The notes: generated from the letters alone by a model not told the origin. A DNA stretch of 64,000 bases from Pirellulales bacterium (GCA_035656635.1 DASRSD010000045.1:1-64000); one strand, 5' to 3'; shown: positions 1 through 38,703, counted from the stretch's first letter. Program-made: numbers and translations.

Positions 1-2
1 TC

Positions 3-194
3 GGACGATGTTACTGTTGCGCCCGCGTCATTTGTAAGCTTTTGCCATCGGTCGAGCAGTCTAATCGCGTTGGTCTTGGTCTGCTCCCTCGTCAAGCGCA
101 AAAGCAAATAGGTCGCAAGTCCGGTCATAGTTCCCATTACGGTGCCCATGATCGTATTTCTGGCGATTTCGAGCTGGTCAGCTTCGAAGTTCAT
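3..194 (-). CDS. Partial small protein, function unknown, runs off left edge
   Basis: An open frame of 64 codons begins with ATG at 194 and is still open at the window edge, so the C-terminus is missing. The N-terminal half has a possible membrane-spanning stretch (around residues 15-33, rich in Met, Gly, Thr and Leu), followed by a charged segment with RLTREQTKT and LLDRWQKL. I do not recognise a family. No convincing ribosome binding site is visible. It lies just left of the tRNA-containing repeat, so it may be the last gene outside the accessory block. Confidence 0.35.
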   Translation of the reverse strand, partial: MNFEADQLEIARNTIMGTVMGTMTGLATYLLLRLTREQTKTNAIRLLDRWQKLTNDAGATVTSS

Positions 195-238: not shown

Positions 239-405
239 TCATTCGCGTCGATAAGTGGTCGTCAGAATGGTCGTCAGAATCCTTGTAAAACGGTGGAAGA
301 TTTGGGATATTTGGAAGCGTGTTCACTCGATTTTAGCCGGGGATATTGCTGAGAAAAGACTCGCTCACACGGTAGTTGTCCCCGGTTCGAGTCCGGGGCC
401 GCCCA
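239..405 (+). repeat. Direct repeat copy 1 with tRNA 3' end
   Basis: About 167 bp that recur at 5930-6095 with roughly 90 percent identity by eye. Each copy opens with a short reading-frame tail (IRVDKW, then SEWSSESL and a TAA stop; both copies keep the frame and the stop) built on a 12-bp tandem GTCGTCAGAAT-type unit. Each copy ends with a tRNA T-arm and acceptor strand. This fits the end of a gene, possibly an integrase, next to a tRNA attachment site. The integrase reading is inference, because no integrase body is present. Confidence 0.75.
380..404 (+). other. tRNA 3'-end fragment (attachment-site remnant)
   Basis: A 5-bp T-stem CCCGG/CCGGG encloses the loop TTCGAGT and is followed by GCCGCCCA, which looks like the 3' acceptor strand plus discriminator. 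A 5' partner GGGCGGC is not found within a tRNA length upstream, and no D- or anticodon arm can be drawn. It is therefore a fragment, the usual trace left when an element inserts at a tRNA 3' end. Confidence 0.65.
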
Positions 406-941
406 CTCGCAAATTCCCGAGTGATTTCTTCATCTGGAACACTTGCTTATCGAATCGGACGTCAAAGTTCGGTTGACTAACGTGAGTTACTTTTCGCTTT
501 GCAGGCATCCGCCGTTCTTTCGATGTCGCACGGTAGGGGTCACAGGAAAAGTTTCGAAATTGGCTTCGAGATTTACGAATTGAAACTCCTTCGAAAACTT
601 CGCATTGACCCAGCAATTCGGCGATGCATAAAGCAGCTCATTGGAAGACACGCGAATACCATTCCAAAAACGGTCCGTTGTTGATAAGTCTCAAGCGCTG
701 ATGAACTGTTGGGACTTCTATGTGGCTAGCCTTCTTGGGTCGGGCAGGTGCAGGCGCATAAATAACCATTTGCCAAGTCCTTGCTGGCGGCCCAGAATGT
801 ACAACGTATCTTGTTCCGGCATAACGATCAGTAGCATTTCGCTTTGCGAAAAACAGTGGCAGAACGTAGGTATCTAACATTGCTGCATGGTCTGGCAGGA
901 ATGTGAAGGTAATGCTCTCTTGAACAGTCGAGAATTCGCAA
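406..941. other. Intergenic stretch with diverged repeat tail
   Basis: No credible gene. Positions 526-690 resemble 6172-6345: both hold CGCACGGTAGGGGTCA, then AAGTTTCGAAATTG, then CATTCCAAAAACGG or its variant CGTTCCAAAAATGG. The duplicated unit was therefore longer than the well-kept 166-bp part. The open frames here encode tRNA-antisense nonsense such as GGPGLEPGT. Confidence 0.55.
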
Positions 942-2273
942 CTACTTCAGCGTGACGATTTGTTTCTCGAGGAGCGTCTTTATGGCCTCGGGCTGTTCGA
1001 TCGACAAAGAATCAAATGCCTTGGCGCAATCTTGCGCAAAAGTGAATGCCGGTTTGTAGCCGGTGCATCGGTACATTTGCCTGCCTGAGGAATCGGCAAA
1101 AATCAGCGTCGGGTAGGCGCCGCCTCCATATTTTTTTTCGACGTCTTTATCTTCGCAAGCTTTGACGATCACGAAGCGCGACAGAAACGATCGAATCCAG
1201 GGATCGTTAAGCGTTTCTTTCTCCAGCATTTTACAGGGACCGCACCAAGTGGCGGTCATCATTACCATCAGTGGCTTGTGCTCCGCCTCGGCCCGCTTTA
1301 AGGCGGAGCTATAATCACTCTCCCAATTAAGCTCCCCTTCCGGGGCAGCTTTGCCCACGTAGAAACCTAGATCGGATTTCATTAAACGCAGCTCGCCCAT
1401 GTCTGTGGGATGATCGGACGACAGCATCACTATTTTTTTATACTGATTGACGTGGTCCGGTGCGGTGGCGAACACCGTGACTTCACTGGGATTGAGCCCT
1501 TCAACCGTGAACTCACCCGCTTCGGACACGGGTACTGTGATGGGTTTTGGCCAGCTCGCCCGTGGAGAGTATCCGCCACTGGGAGTGTTCAGTGGTCCCA
1601 TTGCCGTATCTACATAGAGCTGGACAGACTTAAAGTCGGATGATCCGTCCAATGCAACGGTTCCTTTGAGCGTGACCCGCTCTTCGGGCGGCAGTGGCCG
1701 AAGGACGACCTTGTCGACATTCGCCAAGCTGTGTTTGTAACTTGAAAGCTGCACGTCTAGATCGCGATAGCCCCGTGCACGAAAACAAATCGGCAGATCA
1801 ATGCTTTTGATCTCGTCCGCAAAATAGCCTTCCTGCAGAATGGGCATTTGCGCCTGCACCATTTCCGGCTCGATTTTCCCATCTTCGACCACCAATTGCC
1901 CGATAACAATGCGTCCCCAATCGCCTGCCGCCAGTTGAGCTCGTCCAACGCGCAAGAAGAGTTGCGCCGCTAGTCGCTCTTTTTTTTGATCCACGATCGC
2001 GTGGATGTATTTATTAACTTCCGGGTGTCGTTCGATTTGGTCCAGCGAGCCGAGAAGTTCGCCGGCCAATTGATCAGCCTCGGGTCCGGGCTTGGAGAGC
2101 TGCTGGTCCAGCTTGTCAATCAGTCCGTAAATTTGTTGCATTTGGCCGACGGCGGTGACCAACTCTTTAACCAGTGAAGGCGCTGGTTTCGGATCTTCCG
2201 CCACTGCGTTTGCGGCAATCGCAAAACTAAGCCCCAAAATAGTAAACGTCGTCATCAAATTCTTGGCGTTCAT
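942..2273 (-). CDS. Secreted thioredoxin-domain protein
   Basis: 443 residues with an N-terminal signal peptide (hydrophobic residues about 7-24, AANAVAED cleavage region), so it acts outside the cytoplasm. Residues about 200-300 form a beta-rich segment resembling carboxypeptidase-regulatory or Ig-like modules. The C-terminal domain (about 310-430) is thioredoxin-like with TATWCGPCK; the redox pair is C344/C347, and a cis-Pro is suggested in GGGAYPTLIFAD. The family reduces, oxidises or isomerises disulfides; the substrate is unknown. It is the last gene downstream of the sigma factor/kinase cassette, separated by 375 bp, so co-transcription is uncertain. Start chosen at the ATG that gives the signal peptide. 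Confidence 0.8.
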   Translation of the reverse strand: MNAKNLMTTFTILGLSFAIAANAVAEDPKPAPSLVKELVTAVGQMQQIYGLIDKLDQQLSKPGPEADQLAGELLGSLDQIERHPEVNKYIHAIVDQKKERLAAQLFLRVGRAQLAAGDWGRIVIGQLVVEDGKIEPEMVQAQMPILQEGYFADEIKSIDLPICFRARGYRDLDVQLSSYKHSLANVDKVVLRPLPPEERVTLKGTVALDGSSDFKSVQLYVDTAMGPLNTPSGGYSPRASWPKPITVPVSEAGEFTVEGLNPSEVTVFATAPDHVNQYKKIVMLSSDHPTDMGELRLMKSDLGFYVGKAAPEGELNWESDYSSALKRAEAEHKPLMVMMTATWCGPCKMLEKETLNDPWIRSFLSRFVIVKACEDKDVEKKYGGGAYPTLIFADSSGRQMYRCTGYKPAFTFAQDCAKAFDSLSIEQPEAIKTLLEKQIVTLK

Positions 2274-2648
2274 GCTTTACTCCTCGCGAAGTTTTGCCAC
2301 TGCAATGGATGCATGACAAGGAAAGATATGGTAGGTGTTGCACTGCTTACATCAACACACGCCAAGACAGGCCATTCTTTCTCATGGTTGTAATAATTCT
2401 TCGATTTGCTTCTCCGCGGGGTGGTGATTGATCATAGATAACTTCCTAAAGCCAGTTTCAAGACCTCGTTTGCCAGCAATGCCTGCATCGAGTTTCGTTG
2501 AAACAACTTTGATTGTTCGGAAGGCAGGTAGGTTTTGAAATCCGCTCTAGAGCATTGGCGAATCGTTTCAGTAACGCTTCGATCAATCGCGCCTGCGCGC
2601 GTCAGAGGAGACTTTCGCTTCACGATTGAACAGGAAGTACTAGCCAGT
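2274..2648. other. Intergenic stretch, no clear gene
   Basis: A 63-codon minus-strand frame (2432-2623) starts with GTG, but it has no clear ribosome binding site and no recognisable motif. I see no strong hairpin terminator. Confidence 0.4.
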
Positions 2649-3242
2649 TCACCGGGCCGGCAAAGAGGGAGCCACAGGCGTTGCCCGATTTACAACCTCG
2701 CGCGCCTTATCAGCGGGCGGATTATGGTCATCCAGCAGCGACGCGCCCGAGAACCCGAGGCCATCGGCGTCGTTGATCAGCACCTTAGTTTGGAGTTGTG
2801 TGATGTCACCTTTGGCCTTGCGCCGGCGTTCCAACTGGCTGCGAAGATTAGTAACGCGCGCTTCCAGTTTCGATAATTGAGATTCGCGGATTTTCAGGTC
2901 TTCATCGAAATACTTCGAGACCGCGGTTTCCAATTGCTTGGCAAGATCGGCTTTCGTCGGCTCGTCGACGGCCTGACGGAGTTGGTCTGTCAATTGTTTG
3001 ATTTCCGAGCGAATGGCGGCGATGGCTGGGTCGCCGCCAGTGCTAGTGGAATTCCCATTCGACGAATTACTGGCGCCAGAAACGCCTGATACGCTCACGC
3101 TGGCGGAGTTCTGCCGGCTTGGCAACCGTGGCGCGCTTGACGTATTGGTGCTGACGCCAGAGTCTTGACTTCGGCCTGAATTGATCGCCATCGCTCCGCT
3201 GGCAATGCCGATCGCGATCAGGGCAGTCATTGGCTTGTTCAT
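2649..3242 (-). CDS. Secreted coiled-coil protein of a sigma factor/kinase operon
   Basis: 197 residues. An N-terminal signal-like helix (about residues 5-20) is followed by a Ser/Asn/Gly-rich linker, then a charged helical region (about 75-150, with SKLEARVTNLRSQLERRRKA) predicted as coiled coil by its heptad pattern. The C-terminus is Pro/Ala-rich. No enzyme motif is seen. Its ATG overlaps the kinase stop by four bases (3239-3242), indicating translational coupling with the kinase. It may be a partner or target of the kinase extracytoplasmic part; that is inference. Function unknown. Confidence 0.7.
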   Translation of the reverse strand: MNKPMTALIAIGIASGAMAINSGRSQDSGVSTNTSSAPRLPSRQNSASVSVSGVSGASNSSNGNSTSTGGDPAIAAIRSEIKQLTDQLRQAVDEPTKADLAKQLETAVSKYFDEDLKIRESQLSKLEARVTNLRSQLERRRKAKGDITQLQTKVLINDADGLGFSGASLLDDHNPPADKAREVVNRATPVAPSLPAR

Positions 3243-4813
3243 GGTTTTTCTCCTGTGAAGGATTTAAGAGGTAAAGCGTCGTTCGATTCATGTGTCCAGC
3301 GTTCCTCCAAACGGGCGGCTTCCGCAGCAGCGGCCTTCAGCCCCAACTGCCACGATTCGCCCAACGATAGAACTGATAGCGATTCTTCAGATGCACTGCT
3401 TTCAATCTGTTGCACTGATCGGTTAATCGCTGTCAGCTCGTCCGCAATGCGGGCCATATCGGCTTGATCGGCGCGGAACCGACCGGCGAGGACTTCATTC
3501 GCCACGGCCAACTCTTGGATTTCAAGTGGTTTGCCCGCGCGCCCAGCATCAGCCTTTGGACTCAGCCAGCCTGCAAGCCAGCCGACGGCGACAACGGAAA
3601 GCAACACACTGGCGGCGGCCAAAAGCTGCCAACGCCTGCGGTTTAGTCTTCGTAGCCAGCGGCGCCCACGCCAAGGCGATGGCTGTTGGATGGCGGCCAA
3701 AGCCCGCGCAAGCGACTGCTGCACTTCGTCGGCCGCGGCATAGCGACGACCTGGCTTCTTTTCGAGCAGCCGATCGATCACGTCAGCTAGTTCGTCGGGA
3801 ACTCTCGGGTTGATGTTTTGCACGTTTCGATGCCGATCGTGGCAAATCCGGTGCAGCGTAGCCATTGCCTGCTCGGCCCGAAAGGGCGGATGCCCGGTGC
3901 TCATGAAGTAGAGCACGGCTCCCAGACTAAACAGATCGGACCGGGCGTCAACGGATCCCCCGCGCGCTTGCTCGGGTGACATGTAGTCTGGGGTGCCGGC
4001 AATGATTCCACTGTGCGTAAGCGTAGCATCGTCGGCTGCGCGCGCTAGACCGAAGTCGGTCAGCATCGCGCGTTCCACGCCGTTCTCCAGCAGAATATTC
4101 GCGGGTTTCACATCCCGATGAATCACGCCTTGATCGTGAGCCGCCGCGAGGCCGGCTGCTGCTTGCAAACCGATCCGCAGAATCTCTACGGCAGCCAATG
4201 GTCCTTCCTGATCCACGCGTTGTTGCAGTGAGCGGCCAGCGATGTATTGCATTACGAGATAGGGCGCCACGTGCTCGGATTTGACATCGTGAATTGCGAC
4301 TACGTGCTCGTGGACAATCGAGGCAGCCGAGCGCGCCTCGCGAGCAAAGCGTTGCCGCGCCGGACCACTGTGCGCCAAATGTGGCGCCAACACTTTAATG
4401 GCCACTGGGCGGTTCAATTCTGTGTCAAAGCCTTTGAATACAATGCCCATGCCACCGGCGCCAATCAGTTGCGCGATCTCATAGCGACCAAGCCGGCCGA
4501 GCATTTCCGGGTGTGATGGAGGCGCTAAGAAGTCGAGCTTCATGGGCCGAGTGGATGCGGGGGGTTCGCAATCGGAATCGCTCCGTTCGCCGGTCGTTTT
4601 CGGCATGGTCTCTTGCTTATTGCGGCGAAGCATCGTGCGCACGTTTGCCCAGTCGCCTTCCTCGGCCGCCAATTCCGCAAGCCTCTCTTGGCAGTGTCGG
4701 CACGATTCGACATGGCTTGCGGAGTCTTGGTATTCGGCGCTTTGTTCATCGCCGAACAGCAGCACTTCAAGCTGCACATCCTGACATGTAGGCTGATTTC
4801 TAGAATCGTTCAT
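3239..4813 (-). CDS. Transmembrane Ser/Thr protein kinase with N-terminal anti-sigma-like zinc motif
   Basis: 524 residues. An N-terminal HVESCRHC (H34, C38, C41) matches the H-x3-C-x2-C pattern of zinc-binding anti-sigma domains. The Hanks-type kinase domain (about 110-375) has a Gly loop GAGGMG (118-123), Lys140, catalytic HRDVKPAN (D234), DFGLA (about 253) and an APE-equivalent SPEQ. A membrane helix spans about 396-417, and the last ~100 residues lie outside. The kinase would phosphorylate Ser/Thr on cytoplasmic proteins. It follows the ECF sigma gene by 21 bp in the same operon, so control of that sigma factor by zinc-domain binding or phosphorylation is likely, as in planctomycete ECF/kinase pairs. 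It is coupled to the downstream secreted coiled-coil gene. Confidence 0.9.
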   Translation of the reverse strand: MNDSRNQPTCQDVQLEVLLFGDEQSAEYQDSASHVESCRHCQERLAELAAEEGDWANVRTMLRRNKQETMPKTTGERSDSDCEPPASTRPMKLDFLAPPSHPEMLGRLGRYEIAQLIGAGGMGIVFKGFDTELNRPVAIKVLAPHLAHSGPARQRFAREARSAASIVHEHVVAIHDVKSEHVAPYLVMQYIAGRSLQQRVDQEGPLAAVEILRIGLQAAAGLAAAHDQGVIHRDVKPANILLENGVERAMLTDFGLARAADDATLTHSGIIAGTPDYMSPEQARGGSVDARSDLFSLGAVLYFMSTGHPPFRAEQAMATLHRICHDRHRNVQNINPRVPDELADVIDRLLEKKPGRRYAAADEVQQSLARALAAIQQPSPWRGRRWLRRLNRRRWQLLAAASVLLSVVAVGWLAGWLSPKADAGRAGKPLEIQELAVANEVLAGRFRADQADMARIADELTAINRSVQQIESSASEESLSVLSLGESWQLGLKAAAAEAARLEERWTHESNDALPLKSFTGEKP

Positions 4814-4834
4814 GGCCGCCGATTTTGCAGAAGT

Positions 4835-5455
4835 CTAATTTGCCGCATCTTCAATTCGCCGAACCTCGATCCGCAAGCGCGCGATCACGCGGTTACGAGC
4901 AATGTAAACCGCGCCGATAGAGAGGTCCAACCGCCGGGCGACCTCGGCCATCGGCTCGTCTCCAATAGTGCTCAGCCAGAACGCCTGCCAAGTTTTTTCC
5001 TTCACTTCATTCTGCACATGCTTCGCCGCACATTGAAACACAGCACGCTGGTATTCAAGCTCGAAGAACTGCGACAAAGCCTCTTTCCGATTGCATTGCT
5101 CGTCAAACAGTGATTGCATTCCTGAATTCCCGGTGCCCCACACTTGGTGCTTGCGACGGCTCCGAAAATTTACTGAGAGGTTCCTGGCAATCCGAAACAA
5201 CCAATTGCGAAAGCGGCCACGCTGGGGATCGGGCGCCCAGCGCTCAACGGCCCGGGCAACCGCCAACATGGCCTCTTGCGCCAGTTCCTCTGCGTCCGCG
5301 TGTTGGAAACCCTGACGGCAAGCCAAGTGATAGATTGCCGGCTGATATACGCGCACGAACTCATCCCAGGCCTGGGCATCGCCGCGGTTGGCGATTCTCA
5401 GGATGAGACTGGCTCTGGTCTCGGGGAAATTCGTCATAGAGCGAGTCGTTGCCAT
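4835..5455 (-). CDS. ECF-type RNA polymerase sigma factor
   Basis: 206 residues. Region 2 (about 25-100) includes DAEELAQEAMLAVARAV and FRNWLFRIARNLSVNF. Region 4 (about 140-195) has MAEVARRLDLSIGAVY, the helix-turn-helix that reads the -35 element. It lacks the long C-terminal extension of some planctomycete ECF groups. It is the first gene of the minus-strand run with the kinase and coiled-coil gene, which suggests a three-gene signalling operon. Targets cannot be told from the sequence. The ATG at 5455 gives a normal ECF length. Confidence 0.9.
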   Translation of the reverse strand: MATTRSMTNFPETRASLILRIANRGDAQAWDEFVRVYQPAIYHLACRQGFQHADAEELAQEAMLAVARAVERWAPDPQRGRFRNWLFRIARNLSVNFRSRRKHQVWGTGNSGMQSLFDEQCNRKEALSQFFELEYQRAVFQCAAKHVQNEVKEKTWQAFWLSTIGDEPMAEVARRLDLSIGAVYIARNRVIARLRIEVRRIEDAAN

Positions 5456-5929
5456 CAGCTACTAATATAAACACACGGACCAAGACCTGATCTTTCTCGC
5501 ATAAAAAATCGCGCTCGCAGAAAACAAGAAATGACTGAACATGGTCGTGTAATCGCCAATATTGCAAGAATTTGCCACAATAAACGAGAGAGTGTGGCAG
5601 GCGTGCTTTAAGACCGCTGAAGTCATCGGCTTACTTAGATGACAGTGGGTGGTGCTCGTGTGTCACCGCCTCCACGCTGCCTTTGCGTTGAACCAGGCGG
5701 ATTTGCTTGCGATTACGTTCCGATCGGGTTAATGGGGCCGCTGGATTTGACTTTGTTCCGGAAAGACTTGGTTTGACGACCGTCGACGCCAGACGTCGCG
5801 TTGGCCACCAATCGTCGGGCGATCGAGTGTCCAAATTCGTGTTGGAATTCAAAGTGCCAACAAACGTCAAACGCGAGATTGTTGACATTCCGTTCCGCCG
5901 AGGGGGACCGCCGTCTTAGTCCATGCATT
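5456..5929. other. Promoter-side region of the sigma operon; worn sequence
   Basis: No convincing gene. A 70-codon plus-strand frame (5707-5919) lies in the same frame as the short tail inside repeat copy 2, separated by one TAG. It could be the decayed end of a gene that once ran into the repeat, but no family is recognisable. Confidence 0.35.
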
Positions 5930-6095
5930 TCATTCGCGTCGATAAGTGGCCGTCAGAATGGTCGTCAGAATCCTTGTAAAACAGTGGAAGATTTGGAAGA
6001 ATTGGAAGGATCTTGATTCGATTTTAGCCGGGATATCGCTGAGACAAGACTCGCTCACACGGTAGTTGTCCCCGGTTCGAGTCCGGGGCCGCCCA
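5930..6095 (+). repeat. Direct repeat copy 2 with tRNA 3' end
   Basis: Second copy of the 239-405 repeat, 5691 bp away and in the same orientation. It again has the short coding tail (IRVDKW, then PSEWSSESL, stop) and ends in the T-arm and acceptor strand CCCGGTTCGAGTCCGGGG plus CCGCCCA. Substitutions and small indels are spread through the middle, while the last ~45 bp are identical, which is what selection for an attachment site, or a recent recombination there, would leave. Confidence 0.75.
6070..6094 (+). other. tRNA 3'-end fragment (second attachment-site remnant)
   Basis: The same T-arm and acceptor strand as at 380-404, base for base. No 5' half is present upstream, so it is not a functional tRNA gene. 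Confidence 0.65.
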
Positions 6096-6171
6096 CTTAC
6101 AAATCGCAAAACCTTTCCAGGTGAAGGTTTATGTTTTTCTCGGTGGCAATTCCAACCGAGTCTGTGCGTTT

Positions 6172-6345
6172 CGCACGGTAGGGGTCATAGGACAAAAGTT
6201 TCGAAATTGACTCGTACCTACGGACTGAATTCCTTCAAAAACGTCTCATCGTCCCAGCGCTTCTGGGCGATGCGCCCGACGCGCACAAGGTAGCCCATCA
6301 GAAGGTTAGCAGACGATCGTTCCAAAAATGGTGGTTTGATGAACG
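6172..6345 (+). repeat. Diverged extension of the direct repeat
   Basis: Resembles 526-690 in the same order and spacing relative to the tRNA fragment: CGCACGGTAGGGGTCA, AAGTTTCGAAATTGAC, and CGTTCCAAAAATGG. Identity is lower than in the 166-bp part. It shows that the duplicated block was at least ~430 bp. Confidence 0.55.
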
Positions 6346-6403
6346 GTTCGGAGAAATTCACTTGCCTACTACCTTTAGTGCGCCGACGTTCGCGCAATTG
6401 TAA

Positions 6404-6743
6404 TTACAGTAAATCGCTGTCGAGGCCAGCAAATACTTCATCGCTTACGGCCGAGATATCGTTGTCCGTCCACAGGTCGGTCATTGGCGAAGGGTCGACA
6501 AACGAATCCCGCCGCGACTGTGCGACTTACGCTTCCCGCTCCAGCATTGGGGATACGTTCGATCCATTGCGCAGTACCAGCACCTGATGTTACTGTAGGA
6601 GAAACCACTGCTGCCTTCGTTGAGGCTGCGAACAATTCATCTAGGCCCAGCGCGATAGACGGGGTTGAATTTATGGTCGAGGCCGAGGCAGTTTGATTCA
6701 ATACAACCGCCATTCCGGCAGGAGCAGTACTCACGACGCCCAT
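6404..6743 (-). pseudogene. Relic reading frame, frameshifted, origin unknown
   Basis: On the minus strand a 101-codon frame rich in Ser/Thr/Ala (with PSIALGLDELFAAS) gives way near 6527 to another frame that ends AVSDEVFAGLDSDLL and a TAA at 6404-6406. The second piece looks like a real protein C-terminus, acidic and Leu-rich, and has no start of its own. A frameshifted relic of a secreted or large surface protein is my reading; the family is not identified. Confidence 0.35.
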
Positions 6744-12676: not shown

Positions 12677-13693
12677 TTACTCAATGGCATTGCCTAAGGG
12701 ATAAGAGTCGTTAATACCCAGCAGCGCCTCCCAAGGGCTGTCGACAGTATCCGTAATGGTTTGCTGATTTGTGCCGAAATCGCCCTGGATGCTGTTAGAA
12801 ATGAAATGGACGCCGCCGTCCACCAAAAGAAAATGACAGCCTTCTGTGTGTCGGCTGGAAAAAGCGCGCTGCGCGTATGAATTGGCCTTTGGATCGACAG
12901 CGAGCGGAGTTGAGTAGTTCATTTGGTATTTGCCGCAACCTAGCACATCAGCCAAGCCAATTTCGGATGCCTCCCGTACACCGCGCACTCCAAAAACTAC
13001 CGCCGCGTTGCCGGGAACAATACCGTCCCCGAGTGGTACTTCCCAGGACCTTTCCCCAACCATGGCCGTTTTACTGGTGCCGTCAATAATATCTTTGATG
13101 CGAAAGGCTTTATTGCAGATGAAAATGCCATTGGCGTTGTTGCCAGGAGGGCCGGGATCGCGCCGCAGCTCGGAACTGCTGTTAACGCCGACATAGCTTG
13201 ATGTTGCCAGCGCATTGCCAATTCCGGAGGTGTTTTGAATTAATCGCTGATTGTTTTGCTGTGGAACTGTGCCATCGGATGGACAACGAAATCCGGGCAT
13301 GTCTTGCTGCATATTAGCCAAGCGATCAGACGCATTCAGCGAGGTGGCCAAATCCATCGTTTTCACGTTTATGGCATTGTACGTTTGCTGAAATTCGACA
13401 AATGGCAAGATTTGCGCGGCCCAGCCCCAATTCCCCAAGTTGGTATCGGGCTTGACTGCCGGCGGCGTGGGGTTGGCCTGGATGATACCAGCCGGAAAAT
13501 GTTTGTAAACGCCCTCATAATTTAGCAACGCCAGCCCCAACTGTTTGAGATTGTTCTTGCACTGCGCTCGCCGAGCCGCCTCCCGTGCGGCCTGAATTGC
13601 TGGCAGCAACAGTGCGATTAGCACGCCGATAATCGCAATCACCACGAGCAACTCGACCAGTGTAAATGCTCGAGATGTTCGGACCGTTCCCAT
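12677..13693 (-). CDS. DUF1559 type IV pilin-like protein
   Basis: 338 residues from ATG 13693 (GGAAGG ribosome site); the longer frame from 13726 lacks one. The N-terminus carries a prepilin cleavage and methylation motif, [17 protein letters not shown], running into a long hydrophobic helix and AREAARRAQCKNNLKQLGLA. The C-terminus has the family H-x9-DG motif (HTEGCHFLLVDG). DUF1559 proteins are abundant in planctomycetes and are presumed pseudopilins of a type II secretion-like system. It is the first gene of the operon that ends with the alginate lyase, which suggests a surface or secretion partner for that enzyme set. Confidence 0.9.
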   Translation of the reverse strand: MGTVRTSRAFTLVELLVVIAIIGVLIALLLPAIQAAREAARRAQCKNNLKQLGLALLNYEGVYKHFPAGIIQANPTPPAVKPDTNLGNWGWAAQILPFVEFQQTYNAINVKTMDLATSLNASDRLANMQQDMPGFRCPSDGTVPQQNNQRLIQNTSGIGNALATSSYVGVNSSSELRRDPGPPGNNANGIFICNKAFRIKDIIDGTSKTAMVGERSWEVPLGDGIVPGNAAVVFGVRGVREASEIGLADVLGCGKYQMNYSTPLAVDPKANSYAQRAFSSRHTEGCHFLLVDGGVHFISNSIQGDFGTNQQTITDTVDSPWEALLGINDSYPLGNAIE

Positions 13694-35964: not shown

Positions 35965-38703
35965 ATGGATCAAGCACGCCCCAACCCCGATGAACTTCTT
36001 GCCCGCGTTCTGGCGGAAGAGCCAGGCTTGCGCCGCGGCAAGCTCAAAATCTTCTTCGGCTATGCGGCCGGTGTTGGCAAAACCTATGCCATGTTGACTG
36101 CCGCGCGTCGCGAACAAGCCGCCGGAGTTGACGTGATGGTTGGCTATGTCGAACCGCACGGCCGCCTGGAAACCGAATCGCTGCTGCAAGGCTTGCCAGC
36201 GATTGCGCCGCTCCAAGTTTCCTATCGCGGGGTGACATTGCAAGAATTCGATTTAGATGCAGCGCTCGCTCGTCGACCGCGTTTGATTTTGGTGGACGAG
36301 CTGGCCCACACCAACGCCGAAGGGCTGCGCCATGCCAAGCGCTGGCAAGACGTAGAGGAATTGCTGGCCGCCGGCATCGATGTTTGGTCCACGCTCAACG
36401 TCCAGCATATCGAAAGCTTGAACGACATTATCGCACAAATTACGCACGTCGTCGTCCGAGAAACGCTGCCGGATGCCGTGCTGGAGCGCGCCCATGAAAT
36501 CGAGCTGATTGATCTTACGCCGGAAGAACTGATGCTGCGCCTGCAAGCGGGCAAAGTCTATTTACCGTCGCAGGCGGAGCGCGCGCTCACTAGCTTTTTC
36601 CAACGAAGCAACCTGGTGGCGCTGCGCGAGTTGTCGCTGCGACAAACAGCCCACCGCTTGCACCAAGAGGTGGAAGCCGCCCGACAAGCACGTGCCGATT
36701 TCACCCCCTGGGCCACGCGGGAAAAGTTGTTGGTTTGCGTCGGACCTAGCCCGTCGAGCACCAAAATCATCCGCACCGCCAAGCGCATGGCGGTTGCCTT
36801 TGGCGGAGATTGGCTGGCGGTTGCGGTGAATACAGGAACGGGGACCGAACTATCGGCTGCGCATGAATCGAGCGCGCGGAATCTGCAATTTGCGGAGCGA
36901 CTGGGAGCGGAATCGCAAATGCTCATCGGGCAAAATGTGGCCGACACGGTCCTCAAGTTCGCCCGAGACCGGAACGTCACCAAAATTATCGCCGGTAAAA
37001 CCGCCCAACCGAAATGGAAACGCTGGTTCCGGCGCACCGTGGTCGAAGAGCTATTAACACGCAGCGGCGAAATTGACGTGTACGTCATCACCGGCGAAGG
37101 CACCGAGCGGCGGCAAAGGCACCCCAAGCCATTGCCCAAGATGTCAGCACCAACCCGCCATTATTTGGCCACGTTTGTCGTCGTTGCGGTTTGCGCACTG
37201 GTTGGATGGGCAAATCGCGCGCTGCACCTGGCCACTACGTTTGGAGCTGGCGGCGAGGCCAATATTGCGATGGTGTTTCTGGCAGGCGTGGCTTTTGTCG
37301 CCACCTGGTATGGTCGTGGGCCGGCAATTGCCGCATCGATCGTCAGCGTCCTCCTGTTCGATTTCTTTTTCGTGCCGCCGTACGGAACATTCACCGTAAC
37401 CGACACCGAATACTTAATCACCTTTGCGGTGATGCTGGGAATTGCCTTGCTCATCAGCACGCTGGCCGCCCGACAGCGCTCGCAACTCCGCCTGTCGCAG
37501 GAGCAGGAAAACCGAACCGCAAAGCTATTCCGCATGACCCGGCAATTGAGTGAGCTTTCTGGCACTGACTTCCTGCTGCAAGCGGCCGGACAGCAGCTAA
37601 AAGATTTCTTCGGCGGAGAAAGCGTGGTTTACTTGCGTGCAGCCGATGGCGCGCTGGCGCTTCGTTCGGGTCAAGCAACATCCATCGCGGCAAATCCTAT
37701 CAACGACACCGTAGCGCGTTGGGTGGCCGATAATAACCAGATCGCCGGGGTGGAAACCGATACGCTCCCCAACGCCACCGCCCTTTTCATGCCTTTGGTT
37801 GGGTCGCTGCGAACCATTGGCGCACTGGGCGTTCGGCCGGACAATCTCCAATCTTTACGCAATCCGCAACAACGTCGCCTGCTGGAAACTTGCGCGAGCC
37901 TGATCGCCTTGGCCATCGAACGCGACCAATCTGTCTTGGAAGCCCAAGATGCGCAAGTTCAGATGCGGGCGGAGCAACTGCGAAATTCGCTGCTCAGCTC
38001 CGTCTCGCACGACCTGCGAACGCCGCTGACCGCGATTGCTGGAACGGCCGCCAACCTCAAAGCGGAATTGCTCAATCAAACCACGTCCCATCAACAAGAA
38101 ATGTTGCAAACACTGGTCAGCGAGTCGCATCAATTGGTTCGATTGGTCGAAAACTTGCTCGACATGGCGCGACTGGAGTCCGGCTCGCTGGTCTTGAACC
38201 GCCAGTGGCACGTCTTGGAGGAGCTAGTGGGCTCCGCCATTGCTCGGTCGCGCCGAGAGCTTGGCGACCGCCGGGTTCATGTGAGCCTGCCAGAAGCGTT
38301 TCCGTTGATCCTGGTCGATGGGTTTCTCCTGGAGCAAGTGTTTGTTAATTTGCTGGAAAACGCTGCGCGCTACACGCCGCCGGCCAGTGCCCTCGAAATC
38401 TGGGGAAAGTTTTCCGATCGTCAAGCGGAAATTGTCTTCGCCGATGACGGCCCGGGCTTACCCCCCGGTTCCGAGAACCGCCTGTTTGAGAAATTCTATC
38501 GCCCCCACACTGTGCCGGCCGATGGCCGGCGTGGCATTGGCTTGGGGCTGGCCATTTGCCGTGGAATTGTTGAAGCGCATGGCGGGCGAATTTCCGCCTC
38601 CAACCGCGCCACCGGCGGCGCGCAGTTCACCATTACGCTCCCCTGCAAACCGCAACCCGCCGACACAATAGTTACCCCGGCAGGCGCATCGGCCAGTCCA
38701 TAA
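35965..38703 (+). CDS. kdpD: Sensor histidine kinase KdpD
   Basis: 912 residues. N-terminal KdpD sensor domain with a Walker A-like GYAAGVGKT (32-40) and VDELAHTNAEG; USP-like domain (about 250-370, KLLVCVGPSPSSTKII); four membrane helices (about 398-500); GAF-like part; dimerisation box SSVSHDLRTPLT with H682; and ATPase boxes (VFVNLLENAARY, FADDGPGLP, GIGLGLAICRGIVEAHGG). It senses potassium limitation and phosphorylates KdpE. It lies 179 bp after kdpC, so it may have its own promoter, and 38 bp before kdpE. Confidence 0.97.
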   Translation: MDQARPNPDELLARVLAEEPGLRRGKLKIFFGYAAGVGKTYAMLTAARREQAAGVDVMVGYVEPHGRLETESLLQGLPAIAPLQVSYRGVTLQEFDLDAALARRPRLILVDELAHTNAEGLRHAKRWQDVEELLAAGIDVWSTLNVQHIESLNDIIAQITHVVVRETLPDAVLERAHEIELIDLTPEELMLRLQAGKVYLPSQAERALTSFFQRSNLVALRELSLRQTAHRLHQEVEAARQARADFTPWATREKLLVCVGPSPSSTKIIRTAKRMAVAFGGDWLAVAVNTGTGTELSAAHESSARNLQFAERLGAESQMLIGQNVADTVLKFARDRNVTKIIAGKTAQPKWKRWFRRTVVEELLTRSGEIDVYVITGEGTERRQRHPKPLPKMSAPTRHYLATFVVVAVCALVGWANRALHLATTFGAGGEANIAMVFLAGVAFVATWYGRGPAIAASIVSVLLFDFFFVPPYGTFTVTDTEYLITFAVMLGIALLISTLAARQRSQLRLSQEQENRTAKLFRMTRQLSELSGTDFLLQAAGQQLKDFFGGESVVYLRAADGALALRSGQATSIAANPINDTVARWVADNNQIAGVETDTLPNATALFMPLVGSLRTIGALGVRPDNLQSLRNPQQRRLLETCASLIALAIERDQSVLEAQDAQVQMRAEQLRNSLLSSVSHDLRTPLTAIAGTAANLKAELLNQTTSHQQEMLQTLVSESHQLVRLVENLLDMARLESGSLVLNRQWHVLEELVGSAIARSRRELGDRRVHVSLPEAFPLILVDGFLLEQVFVNLLENAARYTPPASALEIWGKFSDRQAEIVFADDGPGLPPGSENRLFEKFYRPHTVPADGRRGIGLGLAICRGIVEAHGGRISASNRATGGAQFTITLPCKPQPADTIVTPAGASASP

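Follow-up and report, generated by a model that had tools for sequence, protein, structure and literature searches.

A probable integrase-less tRNA-Val(CAC) element with a sigma factor–kinase operon as cargo in a Pirellulales bacterium

Introduction

Cis-mobilizable elements (CIMEs) are bounded by attachment (att) sites on both sides, carry neither integrase nor transfer genes and share the 3' end of their target gene with related elements, to which hybrid att junctions join them in a stack; such tandem accretion is seen among relatives of ICESt1/ICESt3 of Streptococcus thermophilus (PMC5704250). Here we describe a block of similar build from a Pirellulales bacterium. It spans positions 364-6053 (5.69 kb) of a stretch of 64,000 nucleotides, hereafter the window, which corresponds to contig C45 of a genome of 4.9 Mb in 190 contigs (GCA_035656635.1; G000). 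The block is flanked by an attL and an attR that agree in specificity, lacks genes for integration and transfer, and is joined in tandem to its neighbours via a hybrid att site. The resemblance is one of structure, any conjugative descent or mobilisation being hypothetical; the block differs from CIMEs in its host, which is planctomycete-like in gene content, and in its cargo, an operon for an extracytoplasmic function (ECF) sigma factor and a Ser/Thr protein kinase.

The ssrA islands of Dehalococcoides are likewise arranged in tandem and parted by direct repeats of the 3' end of an RNA gene; 15 of them have no integration module, and the 3' end of the integrase gene overlaps attL (PMC3146451). 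Their system is one of transfer-messenger RNA and a CcrB homologue, whereas the target in the window is tRNA-Val(CAC), beside which relatives have tyrosine recombinases. The CcrB homologue is a serine recombinase. The anticodon-centred islands of Islander share with the window a tRNA fragment that starts in the anticodon loop, includes the whole remaining 3' part and has the same orientation, and a 3' fragment of the correct extent and orientation does stand at the end of the block. Islander, however, requires an integrase gene and an intact tRNA on the same replicon (PMC4383910), and the block has no integrase gene inside it. The intact tRNA-Val of this genome lies on another chain of contigs than the array. 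As for the cargo, operons with an ECF gene followed by a Ser/Thr kinase gene are known from Planctomycetes and others, with a zinc-finger motif in every kinase that we compared; the window operon differs in being placed between attachment sites.

We consider it quite probable that positions 364-6053 represent an integrase-less, CIME-like element of a tandem tRNA-Val(CAC) array, which carries an ECF-kinase operon and has lost its integrase. It would be an element of a known kind, with only the cargo and the host group somewhat unusual.

Results

Anatomy of the direct repeats

A preliminary description of the window had reported two direct repeats of ~166 bp. They are real (220-414 versus 5907-6104, 88.4% identity, E=6e-67), but reach past these limits, and each contains a second tRNA-Val fragment that had been overlooked. 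Identity between the copies is complete over 52 nt (356-407 and 6046-6097), and beyond a diverged spacer there is a second homologous stretch (526-627 versus 6171-6273, 79% identical). The claim that each repeat closes with the same tRNA T-arm/acceptor fragment also stood: the 26-nt string has exactly two matches in the window, with 0.00 expected by chance, and forms part of an identical 42-nt tRNA 3' half.

Both copies share the same order: a right end, in which the motif GTCGTCAGAAT stands twice in direct orientation, the 42-nt 3' half of tRNA-Val(CAC), and a left end. Since both repeats read right end, core, left end, the block is to be seen as one member of a tandem array, which would hold at least two or three elements. 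Its own ends extend from 406 on the left and to 6053 on the right; another element has its right end in the sequence before 364, and a third has its left end in the sequence after 6095. These neighbouring elements are incomplete.

All these parts are on the plus strand. The right end of the upstream element (R1, 220-363) is 88% identical to the right end of the block (R2, 5907-6053). The arm-like GTCGTCAGAAT motifs are placed at 258-268 and 270-280 in R1, and at 5949-5959 (one mismatch) and 5961-5971 in R2; the pair is direct, 11-12 nt apart and kept in the sister species (G001), and may represent integrase arm sites. Core 1 (364-405) runs from the first anticodon-loop base to the discriminator A with 85.7% identity to intact tRNA-Val, and core 2 (6054-6095) is identical to it. 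The left end of the block (L1, 406-684) is homologous both to that of the downstream element (L2, 6096-6334) and to the left end that follows intact tRNA-Val in G001. The second tRNA-Val fragment, which comprises the anticodon 3' stem, variable loop and T 5' arm, is found at 527-546 in L1 and at 6172-6191 in L2. It ends at the T loop and is followed by a conserved AAAAGTTTCGAAATTGG, as it also is on the reverse strand of contig C45 of G001 (~146-165).

In the loci examined, the GTCGTCAGAAT motif had only chance matches elsewhere. Among 297 genomes of the order, the right-end motif was detected only in G000, in G001 and in a microsatellite-like array of one further genome (G138), and a search of GTDB genome contigs gave a single match, in an unrelated member of Mycobacteriaceae. 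The repeat itself occurs at three places in G000, one of which is tRNA-Val; wide dispersal unconnected with tRNA genes, which would have spoken against an integrated element, is thus not seen. The other outcome that would have done so, a relative carrying the operon at this site but lacking the repeats, was not found either.

The tRNA-Val cores

The 42-nt sequence CTCACAC...GCCGCCCA is identical at 364-405 and 6054-6095. The preliminary description had proposed a search for an intact tRNA with the same 3' end; an intact gene with this kind of 3' half exists, tRNA-Val(CAC) at positions 985-1058 of contig C89 of G000, but is not linked to the contig with the array. Likeness to this gene begins exactly at the anticodon loop CTCACAC and runs to the 3' end, whereas the preceding sequence is not tRNA-like and a tRNA 5' half is absent before both cores. 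Fragments that start at the anticodon loop are what remains where a tyrosine recombinase has its crossover in that loop (site A; PMC4383910). A functional tRNA or other known RNA within the repeats was considered and rejected, as no intact tRNA gene was found in the window and the Rfam scan gave no match over the repeats.

The T-stems differ in sequence, being CCCGG/CCGGG in the window cores, ACAGG/CCTGT in the resident tRNA and ACTGG/CCAGT in the copy of the sister species, and yet pairing is complete in all four sequences compared. As the stems stay paired through compensatory changes, the fragments appear to be kept as functional tRNA 3' halves; in sequences that are not genes, such changes would be expected only if the fragment at times forms the 3' half of a working tRNA. 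A donor tRNA with the CCCGG/CCGGG stem was sought in 397 genomes, and this version was present only in the two window cores.

The same left end behind an intact tRNA-Val in the sister species

G001 and G002 are the two nearest genomes compared. In G001, the same left end stands directly behind an intact tRNA-Val: the contig with this tRNA ends with ..GCCGCCCAATGGTAAATTCCCGAGTGATTTTACGTTTTTC, and another contig, which overlaps it by 17 nt, begins with GTGATTTTACGTTTTTC.. and continues with an inverted pair of the GTCGTCAGAAT motif and a left end as in window 406-627. The copies in the window and on contig C149 of G001 align across this short overlap. The cargo behind the G001 left end differs from that of the window and comprises a K+ channel-like protein, a cation antiporter, an HdeD-like protein and others, all named from translations and not from domain searches. 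A right end with core is present at positions 10616-10770 of contig C149 of G001, as an 82% copy located 3' of a SulP gene, between it and a beta-galactosidase gene; there is no synteny with the window downstream of that core.

Integrases and integrase tails

From the order, 26 tRNA-Val(CAC) loci were chosen by tRNA similarity alone. An integrase or part of one abuts the tRNA 3' end in seven of them, in other families. Two of these integrases are complete and share 47% and 50% identity with the one that adjoins tRNA-Val(GAC) in G002, and the C-termini of the tRNA-Val(CAC) integrases run antisense into the tRNA as ..GGTGLEPVTSTV. One locus (G040:C10, L032) has a tRNA 3' fragment and then an integrase relic, without an intact tRNA, which is the junction anatomy seen in the window.

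A minus-strand open frame at 365-616 runs into the core, where it ends ..KKSLGNLRVGGPGLEPGTTTV. It is similar to the C-terminal tail of the tRNA-Val-targeting integrases, but has no catalytic domain and no Pfam match. Minus-strand frames of the left ends terminate with ..SLGNLRVGGPGLEPGTTTV and ..VGGPGLEPGTTTV in the window and with ..SLGNLPLGGTGLEPVTPTV in G001. The last dozen residues of all such frames are plain tRNA sequence and therefore prove nothing alone, whereas their position and orientation do fit an integrase tail.

A cognate integrase was sought among 47 tyrosine recombinase matches in G000-G002, and none of the 30 loci examined (L063-L092) has the paired arm motif or adjoins tRNA-Val(CAC). 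Many tyrosine recombinases of these three genomes are neighbours of tRNA genes (Ser, His, Arg, Cys, Met, Leu and Val), a tRNA being present in 13 of the 30 loci. In G002, a tyrosine recombinase abuts intact tRNA-Val(GAC) on contig C96 (L041), and in G001 the 3' half of tRNA-Val(GAC), from the anticodon loop, at positions 3942-3988 of contig C120 (L040) marks another island end.

The cargo operon

The gene content between the repeats is as previously claimed. Four minus-strand genes were identified by open reading frames (ORFs) and Pfam, and no others. The ECF sigma factor (4835-5455), with regions 2 and 4, is the first gene of the operon (TIGR02937, 1.8e-19; Sigma70_r2, 1.6e-14), and is separated by a short gap from the Ser/Thr protein kinase (3239-4813; Pkinase, 1.8e-48), which has an N-terminal, anti-sigma-like HxxxCxxC zinc-finger motif and one transmembrane segment (~395-419). 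The gene for a putative secreted coiled-coil protein of 197 aa (2649-3242) overlaps the kinase gene by 4 nt, and the last gene (942-2273) encodes a thioredoxin-like protein of 443 aa with an N-terminal hydrophobic segment (Thioredoxin_7, 1.8e-13).

Pairs of ECF and kinase genes are found in loci from across the order. The two genes are adjacent in all comparison loci, one kinase (in G037) being cut by the contig end, and the zinc-finger motif, HVESCRHC in the window, has an equivalent form in all ECF-linked kinases compared (the window and 14 others). In some loci a coiled-coil protein follows the kinase, and distant homologues of the window protein are so placed in three genomes of the same order (G006, G021 and G032). 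The flanks of the 15 ECF-kinase loci contain no integrase match, and a tRNA gene (tRNA-Pro) was present in the examined flank of a single one. In the two nearest genomes, the best match to the window ECF is 42% identical (G001), with only weak matches in G002. The preliminary description had called the operon an unusual cargo. As such operons are common throughout the order and lie apart from mobile ends in the other genomes, it is uncommon for an island, but not in itself.

The probable role of the kinase is that of an anti-sigma-kinase, anchored in the membrane, which controls the ECF sigma factor. Its zinc-finger domain may bind the sigma factor as an anti-sigma, with release brought about by kinase activity or by a transmembrane signal. 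EcfP-type sigmas lack the acidic motif and have its charge supplied by phosphorylation (PMC8103513). In the window ECF, the acidic residues of region 2 (DAED), which are replaced by uncharged ones in EcfP/ECF43, are kept as DAEE, and it is therefore unlike sigmas activated in that way.

Discussion

How the array may have arisen

The crossover, made by a tyrosine recombinase, would have taken place within the 7-nt anticodon loop CTCACAC, the incoming element supplying a new tRNA 3' half. Successive integrations at the cores would then stack elements head to tail, each junction taking the form right end, core, left end, and the integrase would subsequently have been lost, with its apparent C-terminal tail, antisense into the core, remaining in the left end. 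The earlier proposal of an integrated element thus holds in so far as the repeats have the build of attachment structures of tRNA-Val(CAC)-targeting elements, but the block is a member of an array, and not a lone island with a tRNA on one side and the matching fragment on the other. The lost integrase of that proposal is probably right; neither an integrase nor a recognisable relic is located between the repeats. If the block is such an element, an integrated element would carry a complete sigma/anti-sigma-kinase signalling operon and no other cargo that can be recognised, offering a concrete route for the spread of the many ECF-kinase paralogues of the order. The findings also mark tRNA-Val(CAC) as a recurrent integration site there.

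A wider proposal, which we put forward as tentative and on the whole doubtful, is that such elements, all without an integrase, form a family and are moved in trans by the tRNA-Val integrases of other elements. Their conserved ends would comprise the paired arm motifs, the tRNA-Val core and the second tRNA fragment of the left end. Their cargo would be exchangeable, a signalling operon in the window and ion-transport and stress genes in G001, and they would form cassette-like regulatory islands of the planctomycete group.

Alternative explanations

Several observations weigh against an integrated element with a lost integrase. Neither an integrase nor a catalytic domain was found within 364-6053 by ORFs, by Pfam or by tblastn with the local integrases, the tail-like frame being all that came up, and none was found beside the block. 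No empty site was found, phages, plasmids and viral contigs gave no match, and the GC content of the block is not distinctive. The ends are known from two genomes only (G000 and G001), and the junction in G001 spans two contigs. In G000, the start of C45 lies only 219 nt upstream of the first repeat. Its first 141 nt (window 1-141) are identical to the end of contig C136, and C89 and C75 overlap by 141 nt as well; these look like assembly-graph overlaps, and the start of C45 is therefore a repeat fork. The resident tRNA-Val is on this other contig chain, from C89 to C75, and neither contig has array ends.

The repeats might instead be solo attachment scars of separate, deleted elements, and the operon a piece of ordinary chromosome that was never mobile. 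Many genomes of the order do have homologous ECF-kinase(-coiled-coil) operons in places that are in no way remarkable, the GC of the block is normal, and a junction could not be told from a left and a right end that enclose no cargo. If the scars were independent, however, their shared orientation and right-left order and their identical 52-nt cores, at a distance of 5.7 kb, would demand more events than one element between two junctions. Moreover, neither of the two nearest genomes has a close counterpart of the operon, and the window to the left of ~39.5 kb is not collinear with either of them. We regard such scars as unlikely. Still less probable, and indeed very unlikely, is that site-specific integration played no part and that the repeats are a dispersed sequence derived from a tRNA, or a small transposable unit of ~400 nt that is not autonomous. 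The position of one G001 copy between the SulP and beta-galactosidase genes and the placement of the G000 copies away from the tRNA would suit this view, but there are just two copies in 4.9 Mb, and the right-end motif pair is confined among the sampled genomes of the order to G000, G001 and the array in G138. Furthermore, the tRNA part begins exactly at the anticodon loop with T-stem pairing kept, and in G001 the left end follows directly on an intact tRNA. Tandem duplication of a segment with a degenerate tRNA gene, with no mobile element, would equally leave a block flanked by two direct copies; it is hardly credible, given that neither copy has a tRNA 5' half, that the block would have been copied too, and that the same ends carry other cargo in G001.

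The variable region of the window

Collinearity of the window with G001 and G002 begins only at ~39.5 kb, and all sequence to the left of this point is therefore variable. This region (1-39500) includes kdp genes, a fucosidase and a GH2 gene; relatives of the kdp and GH2 genes are on separate contigs in the nearest genomes. At 13490-13670 there is a highly abundant dispersed stretch with dozens of matches in G000, G001 and G002, which is probably the conserved start of genes for DUF1559-type proteins. Directly behind the second repeat, positions 6356-6738 contain a degenerate gene piece, an 86% identical copy of which is located on the minus strand of contig C135 of G000 (36416-36796).

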